Source: Muribaculaceae bacterium (lineage in GTDB: Bacteria > Bacteroidota > Bacteroidia > Bacteroidales > Muribaculaceae). From it: a DNA stretch of 64,000 nt. Both the position numbers and the translations under genes were made by a program. Positions 18,794 through 64,000 of the stretch are shown one piece after another (position 1 is the stretch's first letter; every line of letters begins with the position of its first letter). The stretch covers positions 18,625-82,624 of the forward strand of contig JAFZRJ010000029.1 in assembly GCA_017619935.1 (NCBI GenBank), given 5' to 3'. The notes under the pieces were generated by a model that was not told the DNA's origin, made no database searches, and worked only from the letters and a program-made list of their open reading frames with translations.

Positions 18794-20166
18794 ATACCGT
18801 ATTTTGTTATATCTAATTGTTTGAGAATTGCAATAAGGACATCAACAACAATACTATTACCCGATTGTTGATATAATGCCGTGTCGGAAACAACAATTTT
18901 GAATGTATCACGAAAACCCATCAAACGCAAACATTCACGAGGTGTTAATTTCCTAATTCTTCCTTTATGAGTTACATAGTTATCAACACCCGCACGGTGC
19001 ATTTTGTGCATAGATTGTAATAGAGGTCGAGCAATATCTAAATCCGTTTCTGTTGAAGTCTTGAACCCTTTTGTGCCACAAGCAAGAACATATCTTGCCA
19101 CCTTCTCAGAAAGGTAATACTTTTCTTCAACATCCCTAACATCAAAAATAAACTCGTCAAAAGCAGGGTCTGAGGGAGTTAAATCAGAATCAGGATGAAA
19201 CACAAAATCTCCATGCCAATTGAATTGTTGATTCCGTTTTTGACAAAGTTGAACATCTCCGTTTATTTGAGTATAACACTTCGCTCTATTCTTGTGACTC
19301 GTGACAAACTTAATACCCTTTTCTCGAAGAAAATATTTTGTGTCAACATAATCTTCTAGAAAATCATACATTTTATACTCCAATTCTATCGGAGCAGGAT
19401 ATTTGAAATCTGTTTTTTGTTTGAAGCCCAAACAAAAAATACGTTCTCTGTGTTGGGGAATGCCGTAGTCACAACTATTCAGAACACGAAATTTCACATC
19501 ATACCCTAATTCCTCAAAAATATCATGTATAATTCTCCAAGTTCTACCTTTATCATGGTTAATAAGCCCTCTAACATTCTCAAATAGGAATAATTTGGGT
19601 TGTGTTTCTTTAACCACTCTTGCAAACTCATAAAACAAAGTTCCTCGAGCATCTTCAAAGCCTAAACGACGTCCAACCATTGAAAACGCTTGACAAGGAG
19701 CACCGCCCACAATAAAGTCAACTTGACCAAGATATTTCGTTGCGTCAAATTCCCTAATATCACTAAACCAATTATTCTCGGTTATGTCATAATTAGCGAA
19801 ATAACTTTTCTTGCATTTCTCATCTATGTCACCAGCAAAAACAATTTTGTGGTTTAATCCTAATCGTTGAAATGCGTGTTCAATAGCACCAATCCCACTA
19901 AAAACTGTTCCAAGCCTAACACATCTTTCTGGGTGAGTAAATTCCAATTCTCTCCAATTTGGTCCCTTAGAAATAGCTGTTGGCGTTACAATTTTATCTG
20001 TAATGGTATATGCCTTACTTTTAATAACCTTTTGAACCTCAGTCAGATTTTCAAAATCACAAATGGGATTATTTTCAAATAATGAAAGTTGATAGGCAAT
20101 GGCTTCTTCTTCGGCCATTCCCATCTCTATTAGTTCTTCAATACTATATAACTTATATTCACTCAT
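18790..20166 (-). CDS. DNA (cytosine-5-)-methyltransferase, type II R-M
   Basis: 458 residues. C5-MTase motifs in order: motif I TVFSGIGAIEHAF (about 90), motif IV GGAPCQAFS with catalytic C158, motif VI LFENVRG (about 192), motif VIII QHRERIF (about 240), a target-recognition region (about 260-400), motif IX RKLTPRECLRLMGF (about 405) and motif X QSGNSIVVDV (about 435). An N-terminal extension of about 80 residues precedes motif I. It modifies cytosines and protects host DNA from the endonuclease that overlaps its stop codon. Low GC compared with neighbours suggests lateral transfer. The promoter is at 20208-20260. Confidence 0.95.
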   Translation of the reverse strand: MSEYKLYSIEELIEMGMAEEEAIAYQLSLFENNPICDFENLTEVQKVIKSKAYTITDKIVTPTAISKGPNWRELEFTHPERCVRLGTVFSGIGAIEHAFQRLGLNHKIVFAGDIDEKCKKSYFANYDITENNWFSDIREFDATKYLGQVDFIVGGAPCQAFSMVGRRLGFEDARGTLFYEFARVVKETQPKLFLFENVRGLINHDKGRTWRIIHDIFEELGYDVKFRVLNSCDYGIPQHRERIFCLGFKQKTDFKYPAPIELEYKMYDFLEDYVDTKYFLREKGIKFVTSHKNRAKCYTQINGDVQLCQKRNQQFNWHGDFVFHPDSDLTPSDPAFDEFIFDVRDVEEKYYLSEKVARYVLACGTKGFKTSTETDLDIARPLLQSMHKMHRAGVDNYVTHKGRIRKLTPRECLRLMGFRDTFKIVVSDTALYQQSGNSIVVDVLIAILKQLDITKYGI

Positions 20167-60423: not shown

Positions 60424-62793
60424 TTAGCGGCGGCGTTTCTTGCCTGGGCGACGACCCGTGGCTTGCTTGCGCTGTTGAACTTCACGAGCAGTGCTGTTGC
60501 CACGACGACGGCGCTTGGTGCGACGTGAGGCATTGGCGCCCTCGTATTGGTCCCTCATGCGTTCCTCACGCGACTGCTTCGACAGCAAACCGGAGTTCTC
60601 CTGTGTGATGGGCTGCTTGTCGATGCGATGCGAGAACGCCGGACTGGTCTCGGTCACCAGCACCAGGTCGAGTTGCTTCTTAATGAGGTCGGCACGAGCC
60701 ACCTGCACGGTCACCGCATCGCCCAACTGGTAGGCACGATGGGAGCGACGCCCGCGCACCAGGTAGTTTTGCTCGTCAAACTCGTAGAAGTCATCATCCA
60801 GTTCGCGCATGGGCACCATGCCTTCGCAATGGTTCTCGTCCATCTCCACATAGAGGCCCCACTCGGTCACTCCCGAGATATGTCCCGGGAAGACTCCTCC
60901 GAGCCGCTCACCCATATACTCCACCTCCTTATACTTGATGGAGGCGCGCTCAGCGTTGGCAGCCAGTTGCTCCTGCGCGCTGACGTGCTTGCATTCTTCC
61001 TCCAGTTGGTCCACATTGACCGAACGGCTGCCCTTGACGGCATAGCGGTCGAGCAAACGGTGCACCATCATGTCGGGATAGCGGCGAATGGGCGAAGTGA
61101 AATGGGTATAGTATTCAAACCCCAATCCATAGTGGCCCACATTTTGAGCCGAATATACGGCCTTGGCCATGGATTTAATGGTGAGCAACGACAGCATTTC
61201 TTCTTCGGGCTTGCCGGCGGCTTGCCGTAGCATCTGATTAATCGAACGATTCACCTCGCGTGCCGAGCCGTGTGTCTTGAGTTTGTAACCGAAGTGGGCG
61301 GCAATGCGAGCCACGTTCGACAGTTTTTCACTGTCGGGCTCGGCATGCACACGGTAAACCATCGCCTTGGCGTGCTTGCTGGTGGGCACCTTCCCGATGT
61401 GGGCCGCCACGGTGCGGTTGGCAAGCAGCATAAATTCCTCAATCAGTTTGTTGGCCTCTTTCGAGACTTGGGGTTTCACCGCCAACGGTTTTCCGTTTTC
61501 ATCGATATCAAATTTGATTTCCTCACGCTCAAACGACACCGCCCCGTTCTCAAATCGCGCCTTACGTAATTTCTGAGCCAAGTCGTTGAGGACAAGCAAT
61601 TCATCTTTCAAATCGCCCTTGCCGGTCTCAATAACTTGCTGGGCCTCCTCGTAGGAGAACCGACGCACGCTGCGCGTGACCGTGTGGCATATTTGGTATT
61701 TCTTCACGTTGGCATCATCGTCCATCTCGAAAACCACCGAATGGGTGAGTTTATCCTCTTTGGGGCGCAACGAACAGATGAAGTTGCACAAGCGTTCGGG
61801 CAGCATGGGAATGGTGCGATCCACCAGATATACACTCGTGGCGCGTGACTCAGCCTCGCGGTCAATGACTGTTCCGGGTTTCACATAGTGGGTCACGTCG
61901 GCGATGTGCACGCCAATCTCCCAGTGGCCGTTCTTGAGCCGTTCAATCGAGAGGGCATCATCGTAGTCCTTGGCATCGGCAGGGTCGATGGTAAACGTGG
62001 TCACACCACGCATATCGCGGCGGCGAGCCACCTCATCATCGGTGATGCCGGGCTGCATCTTGCGGGCCACCCGTTCCACGCTATCGGGATATTTATAGGG
62101 CAAGCCAAACTCAGCAAGAATGGCATGAATCTCGGCATTGTTCTCTCCGGCTTTTCCCAACACATCCACCACCTCACCGATGGGGCTATTGGCGTCTTGC
62201 GGCCATTCCACAATGCGAGCCACCACCTTGTCGCCAGTCTCACCACCCGCCAACTTGTCGAGCGGAATAAAAATGTCGGTGGCAAGGAACTTGCTGTCGG
62301 TAGCCAAATGCGCGAAATAGCGTTTCACGTCCAGCGTTCCCACAAACACCTGCTCCTTGCGTTCCACAATCTGAATAACTTCGGCCTCAGGCTCCATGCC
62401 CTCGCGAGCCGCGCTGATGTGCACCATCACACGGTCACCATTCAGAGCGTGCATGGAGTTGCGCTCGGCCACCATGATGGTTTTGCCGTCGTCGGCACCG
62501 ATGTCCACGCTATTCTTGCCATTGCTGCGACGAATGAAAACACCCTCGGCCACCATCGACCGGCCCGCAGCCTTGTAACGGCCCGTAGACACCTCTGTCA
62601 CAAAACCATCGATAGCCAAGGTCTGCAGAATTTCGGTGATGAGGGCGCGTTGCTTGGGGGTGGCAGCCCCCACAGCGGCCGACACTTGTTTATAATTGAA
62701 CTGGCCGTCGCCATGCTCGTTGAAGAAGTTAATGACAGCATCATGGAGCTCACGGCGCTCTATGCGCAAATTGCCTTTCTTTTTCTTTGCCAT
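60424..62793 (-). CDS. rnr: Ribonuclease R
   Basis: 3'-5' exoribonuclease of the RNB family. 789 residues from ATG 62793 (AKKKKGN start; 12 more codons upstream are open but unlikely). N-terminal winged-helix RNase B domain (about 15-70), cold-shock domains (about 70-230), RNB catalytic domain (about 255-580, with TFTIDPADAKDYDDALSIER holding the metal-binding Asp residues), C-terminal S1 domain (about 630-720), and a basic tail rich in Arg/Lys. Confidence 0.96.
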   Translation of the reverse strand: MAKKKKGNLRIERRELHDAVINFFNEHGDGQFNYKQVSAAVGAATPKQRALITEILQTLAIDGFVTEVSTGRYKAAGRSMVAEGVFIRRSNGKNSVDIGADDGKTIMVAERNSMHALNGDRVMVHISAAREGMEPEAEVIQIVERKEQVFVGTLDVKRYFAHLATDSKFLATDIFIPLDKLAGGETGDKVVARIVEWPQDANSPIGEVVDVLGKAGENNAEIHAILAEFGLPYKYPDSVERVARKMQPGITDDEVARRRDMRGVTTFTIDPADAKDYDDALSIERLKNGHWEIGVHIADVTHYVKPGTVIDREAESRATSVYLVDRTIPMLPERLCNFICSLRPKEDKLTHSVVFEMDDDANVKKYQICHTVTRSVRRFSYEEAQQVIETGKGDLKDELLVLNDLAQKLRKARFENGAVSFEREEIKFDIDENGKPLAVKPQVSKEANKLIEEFMLLANRTVAAHIGKVPTSKHAKAMVYRVHAEPDSEKLSNVARIAAHFGYKLKTHGSAREVNRSINQMLRQAAGKPEEEMLSLLTIKSMAKAVYSAQNVGHYGLGFEYYTHFTSPIRRYPDMMVHRLLDRYAVKGSRSVNVDQLEEECKHVSAQEQLAANAERASIKYKEVEYMGERLGGVFPGHISGVTEWGLYVEMDENHCEGMVPMRELDDDFYEFDEQNYLVRGRRSHRAYQLGDAVTVQVARADLIKKQLDLVLVTETSPAFSHRIDKQPITQENSGLLSKQSREERMRDQYEGANASRRTKRRRRGNSTAREVQQRKQATGRRPGKKRRR

Positions 62794-62928
62794 ATGATTC
62801 TTTTTTAATATTCCTCCAAAGTTAGTCAATTCTCACGACCCCACCAAAAAATCCCCGAAAAAACAAAGAACCATCCACAACAAAACTCACCCCAGCCCCA
62901 CCAAATGCCGAAAGCACAGCATTTTGTT

Positions 62929-63252
62929 ACGTCGAAGACGTTAAATGCCCCGGAGGGGCTAATCATGTTAAAGACCATGCGAGAGGGCCAGAGGTCCTCG
63001 CTGCTTGGTCCATGACGGACAAGCAAACAGGTGCCTCGGAGAGGAACTTCAACCACCTCAAAAAGTGCTGAAAGCACGGCACAACGCCACCGGCTACTTT
63101 TGCCACGTCGAAGACGTTTAATGCCCCGAAGGGGCTTACCGTGTTAAAGACCATGCGACAGGGCCGGAGGGCCTCGTTGCTTGGTCCATGACGGACAAGC
63201 GAATAGGTGCCTCGGAGAGGAACTTCAACCACCCCAAAAGTGCTGAAAGCAC
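62929..63252. repeat. Two tandem 176-bp hairpin-rich repeat units
   Basis: Unit A (62929-63077 plus spacer) and unit B (63105-63252) repeat with a 175-176 bp period. Each unit carries the same chain of small perfect stems with GAA/GGA loops: ACGTC-GAA-GACGT (62929-62941; 63105-63117), GCCCC-GRA-GGGGC (62947-62959; 63123-63135), CCTC-GGA-GAGG (63034-63044; 63210-63220) and GTGCT-GAA-AGCAC (63065-63077; 63240-63252). A CTTGGTCC/GGACAAG stem also occurs in each. No coding frame is convincing. Confidence 0.85.
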
Positions 63253-63264
63253 GGAACAACCTAG

Positions 63265-63392
63265 CCCAGGGTGAGCCGTAAGGCGTAACCCTGGGTATGA
63301 AACGCCGTCCCCTCCCCACACACAAGCCCTGAAGGGGCGGCACATCGGCATGGATTTTGTGTCGCTCTTTCAGAGCTTTTTTTTTGGGGGGG
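63265..63392. repeat. Further hairpins and homopolymers beyond the tandem units
   Basis: A long stem (63265-63295: CCCAGGGT and ACCCTGGG with an inner GCC-GTAA-GGC), GCCCT-GAA-GGGGC (63326-63338), and GCTCT-TTC-AGAGC (63364-63376) followed directly by a T-run and then a G-run (to 63392). The last may terminate plus-strand transcription. A GTGC/GCAC stem also lies just before the final gene. Confidence 0.75.
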
Positions 63393-63468
63393 AAAAATGA
63401 CGAAAACCGGGGTTCCGCACTCGCTTCACCCCGGCCTATATTGTGTCGTGCCTTCAGCACTCACACCT

Positions 63469-64000
63469 TTACTTCACCACCACTTTCTGGCCGTTGTGGA
63501 TGTAGATGCCGGGCTGCGTGGGATGCGTCATGGGCTGGCCCATCAGATTGTAGTACACGCCGTCGCCTTCCACCACCCTGCTGGCCTTGATGTCGGTCAC
63601 CGCCGATGGGCCGGTGTCAAGTGTCACGCGTGCCCGTGAGGGCTCACCGTTGCAAGTGGTCTCGGTCGTGCTCGAGCCCCCTTCGTGGGCATAGAACTCG
63701 TGATAAGTCAGGAAGCTGAAACCATCGGGACACACCTCGATATCGCCGCCCTTGAAGGTATCAGTGGCCTTGACCTTGAACTGCATCATTTGGTACTGGC
63801 CGTTGCCCATAATCTCTATTTTTGCGCCACCCTCAAACAGGAACGTCAGTTTGTTGGCCGCGACTTTATCCGTCCACAGGTTGTGGCTTGTTTCCATGTG
63901 AAACAAGATGAAGTCTTCGGCAAAGGGGCCGCTCATCAACTCCGGACGGGTGAAATTGGTCGACAGGGCGCCATAGCCGCCCCACTTCTCGTCGTAAAGA
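63469..64000 (-). CDS. Secreted protein, C-terminal part (runs off the window)
   Basis: The frame is open to the window edge, so the 5' end is missing; about 176 residues are visible. No catalytic motif seen. The last 30 residues (VYYNLMGQPMTHPTQPGIYI followed by a HNGQKVVVK end) match the C-terminal cap common on secreted and surface proteins of Bacteroidales (YNLxGQ...GIYIxNGKK). Preceding sequence is beta-rich (KVAANKLTFLFEGGAKIEIM). The main domain cannot be named from this fragment. Confidence 0.75.
   Translation of the reverse strand, partial: LYDEKWGGYGALSTNFTRPELMSGPFAEDFILFHMETSHNLWTDKVAANKLTFLFEGGAKIEIMGNGQYQMMQFKVKATDTFKGGDIEVCPDGFSFLTYHEFYAHEGGSSTTETTCNGEPSRARVTLDTGPSAVTDIKASRVVEGDGVYYNLMGQPMTHPTQPGIYIHNGQKVVVK

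Follow-up and report, generated by a model that had tools for sequence, protein, structure and literature searches.

REP sequences, their inverted pairs (REPINs) and the transposase TnpA-REP (RAYT) make up the REPtron, in which short hairpins occur in many copies and hairpins lie on both sides of the gene for a single-strand HUH/Y1 enzyme, as described in PMC6006769. The array analysed here is likewise composed of many-copy short hairpins and inverted pairs, but the transposase of the REPtron belongs to class 2 while the genes found here are placed in class 1.2, and, unlike in REP/RAYT systems, each unit carries several hairpins. The loops of GTAG repeats are TY or CMA (PMC3733652), whereas the loops here are GNA. 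The REP-like structures of subclass 2.6 are likewise found in Bacteroidetes, lack GT[AG]G and have atypical secondary structures that were found by hand, and the main-text description of that subclass sets it apart by its motif YIH[QN]NP, against Y---Q--HH here (Quentin et al. 2018, PMC6006769). For subclass 1.2, the same paper gives Y---Q--HH, DH[IV]H and a length near 148 aa, and enters its REPs as "no".

The closest solved relatives of our transposase belong to IS200/IS605 (IS608 and ISDra2; 2f4f, 2xm3, 2a6m and 2vhg), which share the Y1_Tnp domain with it; unlike IS200/IS605, the copies here are mostly gene-less and form inverted hairpin arrays. Besides, one module of the array aligns with Acido-Lenti-1 (RF01687), which is entered in Rfam as an sRNA and is filed from Acidobacteria and Lentisphaerae; Weinberg et al. 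regard it as probably an RNA (PMC2864571), and a 2026 paper places it downstream of secreted proteases and proposes that it may regulate protease genes (PMC13298647). The matches reported here differ in that they come from Bacteroidota, form inverted pairs and stand next to TnpA genes, with scores below the cut-off in this genome.

We analysed a window of 64,000 nucleotides, which is the whole stretch G000:C36:18625-82624 of a 1.86-Mb genome of 66% completeness. The array in this window is very probably a mosaic of REP/REPIN-like non-autonomous DNA elements mobilised by a TnpA of subclass 1.2, a reading built on features visible in the sequences, namely the repeats, the inverted flanking of TnpA, the loop class, the covariation of the stems and the link to RF01687.

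Layout of the array and its dispersed copies

The array lies between two minus-strand genes, one starting near 62793, which we take to be rnr, and one ending at 63469, which has no Pfam or NCBIfam match and whose tail may resemble a type IX sorting tail. Its features are the following.

62922 to 63054, plus strand: A-type unit 1 (the GNA strand is the plus strand), three mini-hairpins and one long hairpin; here the C25 and C22 copies have 94% and 95% identity to it
62929 to 62941, plus strand: hairpin H1, ACGTC-GAA-GACGT; double changes at 5 of 5 pairs among 28 units
62947 to 62959, plus strand: hairpin H2, GCCCC-GGA-GGGGC; 100% of cells paired, double changes at 5 of 5 pairs
62974 to 63009, plus strand: long hairpin H3, with an invariant ACCATGC/GCTTGGT base and a covarying tip in the alignment of A units
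63034 to 63044, plus strand: hairpin H4, CCTC-GGA-GAGG, from the hairpin scan and the A-unit alignment
63065 to 63077, plus strand: hairpin H5, GTGCT-GAA-AGCAC, between the A units, from the hairpin scan
63098 to 63230, plus strand: A-type unit 2, with H1 at 63105-63117, H2 at 63123-63135 (loop GAA), H3 at 63150-63185 and H4 at 63210-63220
63239 to 63461, no strand assigned: E element, a REPIN-like inverted pair E1-E2 ... E2'-E1' of 223 bp (inverted repeat I1)
63239 to 63295, plus strand: E1, with hairpin GTGCT-GAA-AGCAC at 63240-63252, a linker and a second stem CCCAGGGT/ACCCTGGG at 63265-63295
63326 to 63344, plus strand: E2, the inner module GCCCTGAAGGGGC with GGCACA (repeat family D2)
63357 to 63378, minus strand: inverted E2 (inverted repeats I2 and I4), containing hairpin 63364-63376 with its GAA on the minus strand
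63407 to 63461, minus strand: inverted E1, consisting of the terminal hairpin and the second stem, with GAA on the minus strand

The two A units are direct copies of 142 nt (62922-63063 and 63098-63239) with 90% identity and a step of 176 bp. The preliminary description, made from the letters of the window, had reported at least four perfect stems with GAA or GGA loops in each of two 176-bp units, mostly closed by C-G, and we found four such triloop stems per unit (H1, H2, the 4-bp H4 and H5), of which three are closed by C-G and the fourth, H5, by T-A. It had also noticed that the central stem (H2) keeps its arms while the loop changes from GGA in unit 1 to GAA in unit 2, which is correct. 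The longer central hairpin H3 accompanies the mini-hairpins in both units. Hairpins of the same style had been described as continuing to 63376; the hairpin 63364-63376 does exist, but its GAA is on the minus strand and 63239-63461 is an inverted pair, so the array turns round there. The termini of E are AGTGCTGAAAGCAC-type hairpins in opposite orientation at the two sides, and an inner inverted pair lies inside it.

From 62900 to 63470 there are 6 plus-strand GNA triloop hairpins with a stem of at least 5 bp, out of 10 in the whole window, and 8 with a stem of at least 4 bp. In 2000 dinucleotide shuffles of this stretch the means were 0.06 and 0.18, the maximum was 2, and none (0 of 2000) reached the observed counts. 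Folding as single-stranded DNA also beats the shuffles in two overlapping stretches, 62905-63080 (z -2.63) and 63062-63400 (z -3.60). Neither a coding function nor a CRISPR-like nature, both denied earlier, found support: the minus-strand open frames there (83 and 165 aa) run across the repeats, and the 176-bp copies that form the units follow one another with no varied spacers.

A 501-bp query from the array has 41 matches in the genome, so the copies are not confined to the window locus and the earlier idea of a family survives. Most of the copies lie between long frames in an open-frame survey without gene prediction. Head-to-head dimers of A units stand at five places (L028, L036, L041, L045 and L046), 9-11 bp apart when the unit ends are projected from the query. 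The E layout, which is two RF01687 matches in (-,+) order, is seen in six pairs spanning 209-223 bp; those besides the window are located on C9 (twice), C10, C18 and C24 (209-220 bp).

For the covariation analysis, 28 of the 30 A units were aligned, leaving out the weak matches L034:6043-6181 and L057:2798-2939. It turned out that the 27 named pairs are 95.9% paired and that double changes occur at 17 pairs (127 cells), values reached by 0 of 500 shuffles, which serve as controls and are not probabilities because the structure was taken from one aligned sequence and the rows are related. By our own sum, 20 cells are G-U, against the 127 double-changed cells. Stem erosion without compensation, considered earlier as a sign against the family, does not count against it here, as the stems of these 28 units change with compensation.

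Several other observations were made on these repeats. The copies at L036:1-612, L046:6130-8523, L032 and L035 are just 3' of genes with dockerin-like product tails; Dockerin_1 matches 2 of 2 tested genes 5' of copies, and the remaining tails were judged by eye. A further dispersed repeat, L046:406-563 and L046:8949-9125, mutually inverted, has matches in G003, G027, G033 and G343. On many contigs of G033, the matches listed include more than 25 that cover half an A unit (query 632-716); several are within about 120 bp of the contig start, which looks as though the assembly had broken at the repeat.

Oriented hairpins around Y1 transposase genes

The genome contains six Y1_Tnp genes, every one above the domain cut-off, five of which carry Y---Q--HH, while the remaining one, C17:67003, belongs to the NHVH/YIHQNP type. 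C24:125142 and C30:106893 each lie between inverted A units; the two loci share a 768-bp block of unit, gene and unit at 89% identity, and the edges of this match are no more than about 22 bp from the outer unit ends as projected. C24:128767 is located between E modules in the opposite orientation (TNC upstream, GNA downstream), and C17:22988 is flanked by an inverted pair of its own, CAAGTC-GTA-GACTTG and its complement. C7:90555 has two GNA hairpins upstream and, as judged by eye, an imperfect inverted pair only. Within 350 bp of C17:67003 we found no GNA or TNC hairpin with a stem of at least 4 bp. The Y1 transposase which the preliminary description had proposed as a partner is present and flanked by the same hairpins. 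Besides, a TnpA fragment (29 residues matched, one stop) adjoins an RF01687 match at G000:C38:22704-22862, near the contig end.

To see the general arrangement, two sets of TnpA loci were compared, 119 in all. The first comes from the best 80 of 554 relatives in a contig scan, which are 79 distinct loci, by title mostly Bacteroidota with single Lentisphaerae, Planctomycete, Neomarinimicrobiota and Chlorobiota records; the second consists of the 40 top-scoring genes of a phylum search, this genome excluded. We counted triloop hairpins with a perfect stem of at least 5 bp in 200-bp flanks, TNC being the reverse complement of GNA. At the 79 loci there are 76 GNA hairpins upstream (4.90/kb) and 95 TNC hairpins downstream (6.10/kb), compared with 0.84 and 0.96/kb for the wrong-strand classes and 0.14-0.42/kb for either class 800-1200 bp out (0.12-0.50/kb for both sets). 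GNA is found upstream at 46 of 79 loci, TNC downstream at 59 and both at 38, while displaced windows at 600, 800 and 1000 bp hold both classes in 0 of 62, 1 of 61 and 0 of 61 cases. The 40-locus set gives 3.28/kb GNA upstream and 3.88/kb TNC downstream, with both at 8 of 40 loci; 200-400 bp upstream the wrong strand is commoner (18 TNC vs 9 GNA), and therefore the arrays turn round further out.

Over both sets, the 238 flanks contain 225 oriented GNA hairpins, whereas 30 dinucleotide shuffles gave 3.9 on average and at most 8. At least one oriented hairpin is present at 97 of the 119 loci and in 22 of 25 protein clusters (60% single linkage), and 22 loci (12 of 79 and 10 of 40) have no GNA hairpin in the expected place. 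As controls we used 20 other Y1 genes from the relatives set, 8 of IS200 type and 12 of class-2 type: GNA was found upstream of 0 of 20 and TNC downstream of 1 of 20, with two hairpins. By type, the IS200-type genes have GNA in the 200 bp upstream in 0 of 8 cases and TNC downstream in 1 of 8, and none of the 12 class-2 type genes has a GNA hairpin in the 200 bp upstream.

Y---Q--HH is present in 76 of the 79 and 39 of the 40 proteins, and their median length is 147 aa; by the Y motif and the length, the predicted transposase fits TnpA-Y1 subclass 1.2. Among the 79 proteins the HUH motif is DHIH in 53 and NHIH in 26, while the published motif of the subclass has D.

GTAG stands directly before 1 of 240 flanking GNA hairpins and GTGG before 0 of 240 (offsets 0-2), and GT[AG]G precedes 0 of 8 hairpins of the window. 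Because of this near absence of GTAG, and because the transposase is of another class, the family is not canonical REP, which we rejected on guide motif and transposase class. Inverted pairs, the criterion for REPINs and BIMEs, are present: five A dimers, six E pairs and 12 close RF01687 pairs in a Lentisphaerae MAG. The earlier suggestion of a REP-like mobile family with a Y1 transposase is supported by dispersed copies, flanked Y1 genes, inverted dimers and the regularity over 119 loci. TAG directly precedes 15 of the 240 hairpins (3.9 expected), at 13 of 119 loci, which makes it a lead for a guide at a subset of loci only.

GNA and GNNA loops give extraordinarily stable DNA mini-hairpins according to PMC4686876. 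The 300-bp flanks of the 79 loci contain 187 GNA loops (GAA 116, GGA 33, GTA 24, GCA 14), closed by C-G in 109 and T-A in 75, with three exceptions. Near the genes of all 119 loci (300 bp) GNA hairpins reach 3.56/kb, against 0.25/kb far from them (600-1500 bp), which bears out the earlier pointer to DNA mini-hairpin loops; for GNNA the values are 0.63 and 0.10/kb. GNYA tetraloops are enriched about 21-fold (26 vs 3 hairpins) and GNRA about 3-fold, and no TTCG loop occurs in this near/far comparison. This profile (GNA, GNNA, GNYA over GNRA, no TTCG) agrees more with DNA than with RNA. Enrichment is also seen for AAA and AGA triloops (31 and 24 near, 10 and 0 far), therefore GNA is the main loop class and not the sole one.

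The link to Acido-Lenti-1

The match of the E1 module covers the full RF01687 model, which reads the TTC strand. In the window the scores are 29.6 bits (63239-63271, minus strand) and 29.8 bits (inverted E1, 63407-63461, plus strand), with a cut-off of 37; above the gathering cut-off there are 0 copies in this genome, and such copies occur in 21 of 247 phylum genomes. In the same 247 genomes, 29 have RF01687 (E<=1e-5) and 106 have TnpA (E<=1e-20). TnpA is present in 22 of the 29 RF01687 genomes and 84 of the 218 others (Fisher p 1.4e-4), and 7 of the 29 have no TnpA match at E<=1e-20. The corresponding figures for RF01687 and TnpA in the relatives set, 9 of 10 against 48 of 61, say little.

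The distances were examined for 116 RF01687 hits, leaving out the seven of G000, and the 56 TnpA genes listed, down to E about 8.8e-33. Within 300 bp there are 10 of 116 hits and 8 of 56 genes, with 0.055 expected under uniform placement; within 1 kb there are 15 hits and 10 genes, with 0.13 expected and several hits per array. At two loci of the relatives set, G046:C81 and G055:C70, the TnpA gene stands between inverted RF01687 hits. The Lentisphaerae MAG has 74 hits, and among the 29 that share a contig there are 12 close pairs, 11 of them in one orientation, spanning 207-220 bp. A hit within 1 kb of TnpA (59-614 bp) is found in 7 of the 14 RF01687-bearing genomes reached through loci, including this MAG, a count made by hand on genomes chosen for having TnpA. 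At ten named loci no RF01687 match (E<=0.05) was found within 1 kb of TnpA; therefore RF01687 is one hairpin family among several. The best explanation from these comparisons is that Acido-Lenti-1 represents the terminal two-hairpin module of one GNA hairpin family.

Two genomes show further arrangements. G014, of the same genus, has eight RF01687 matches and no TnpA at E<=1e-3, so its repeats may have outlived their transposase. In G113, three RF01687 copies stand at exact 66-bp steps (C30:19217-19394), with a fourth at 19085, as a small tandem array upstream of TnpA.

Mobility, alternative explanations and meaning

Differences in presence between relatives were found at two places. Opposite the C25 locus, which has 630 bp with an A dimer, the relative G003 has 77 bp, and the first 300 residues of its rnr are 94% identical; divergence of the flanks kept the junction from being read to the exact base. 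Near rnr the repeat is absent from all 29 loci examined (BLAST E<=1e-4) out of 58 relatives with an rnr match; in the five relatives with further matches that were inspected, the rnr side alone aligned, so that locus gives no clean empty site. Both contrasts are presence/absence differences and not junctions. In copies taken from G060 and G172 (20 per genome), the sequence immediately 5' of the first hairpin is related in most cases but unrelated in a few of those from G060, which by eye suggests a possible element end at the hairpin foot.

Since this hairpin family brackets genes for single-strand transposases, the repeat is most likely the mobile recognition signal of that enzyme, and by analogy the array would work like a REPtron with REPINs. 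When the DNA becomes single-stranded, e.g. as lagging-strand template, the GNA strand would fold into very stable mini-hairpins, which TnpA would bind strand-specifically through loop and stem. We infer that its tyrosine then cuts beside the hairpin and that the enzyme moves or copies one of two elements, the gene-bearing one composed of a unit, TnpA and an inverted unit, or the inverted pair that lacks a gene. Each TnpA would keep stem sequences of its own while the loop stays GNA, and for this reason stems would drift with compensation around a constant loop.

The preliminary description had left three options, a REP-like mobile family, a binding site for nucleoid proteins or nucleases and a structured RNA; the first has gained support and the last has become less likely. 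If Acido-Lenti-1 and its kin were small RNAs or untranslated-region elements, the nearness to TnpA would be regulatory. The sRNA entry in Rfam and the "probably RNA" mark of Weinberg et al. (PMC2864571) point that way, and covarying stems are expected from RNA too, but the loops are of the DNA mini-hairpin class (GNYA about 21-fold, GNRA about 3-fold, TTCG absent), paired changes number 127 against 20 G-U cells, and the hairpins stand inverted at both gene sides, with inverted pairs of constant span elsewhere; we regard an RNA as improbable. Alternatively, the hairpins could be insulators, i.e. terminators or mRNA stabilisers of TnpA genes that were spread by recombination and not by TnpA. A T run follows hairpin 63364-63376 on the plus strand, and the window locus and C10 have a common block running into the neighbouring gene, which looks like recombination. 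This explanation appears even less probable than the RNA one, as inverted pairs that lack a gene but keep a constant layout also exist at a distance from TnpA, and the 20 other Y1 genes are nearly without hairpins.

Beyond the mobile-element reading of this array, we lean towards a wider proposal, that these loci represent a new kind of REPtron. In it, a TnpA of subclass 1.2 would read a GNA mini-hairpin whose loop is fixed and whose stem drifts, with one stem family per paralogue, Acido-Lenti-1 would be one of its DNA signals instead of an RNA gene, and the mobile form, from Bacteroidota to Lentisphaerae, would be the inverted pair of about 210-220 bp. We found no published link of GNA hairpins or RF01687 to a subclass 1.2 TnpA in the literature covered, most subscription journals and supplements being outside its scope.

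In conclusion, an orphan class of single-strand transposases gains a likely substrate, and the GNA DNA mini-hairpin, so far a biophysical curiosity, would be tied to a natural function. Part of the repeat has until now been listed as an RNA gene, and this Rfam family, recently cited as a possible regulator of protease genes in PMC13298647, is suggested to be a mobile DNA signal instead.
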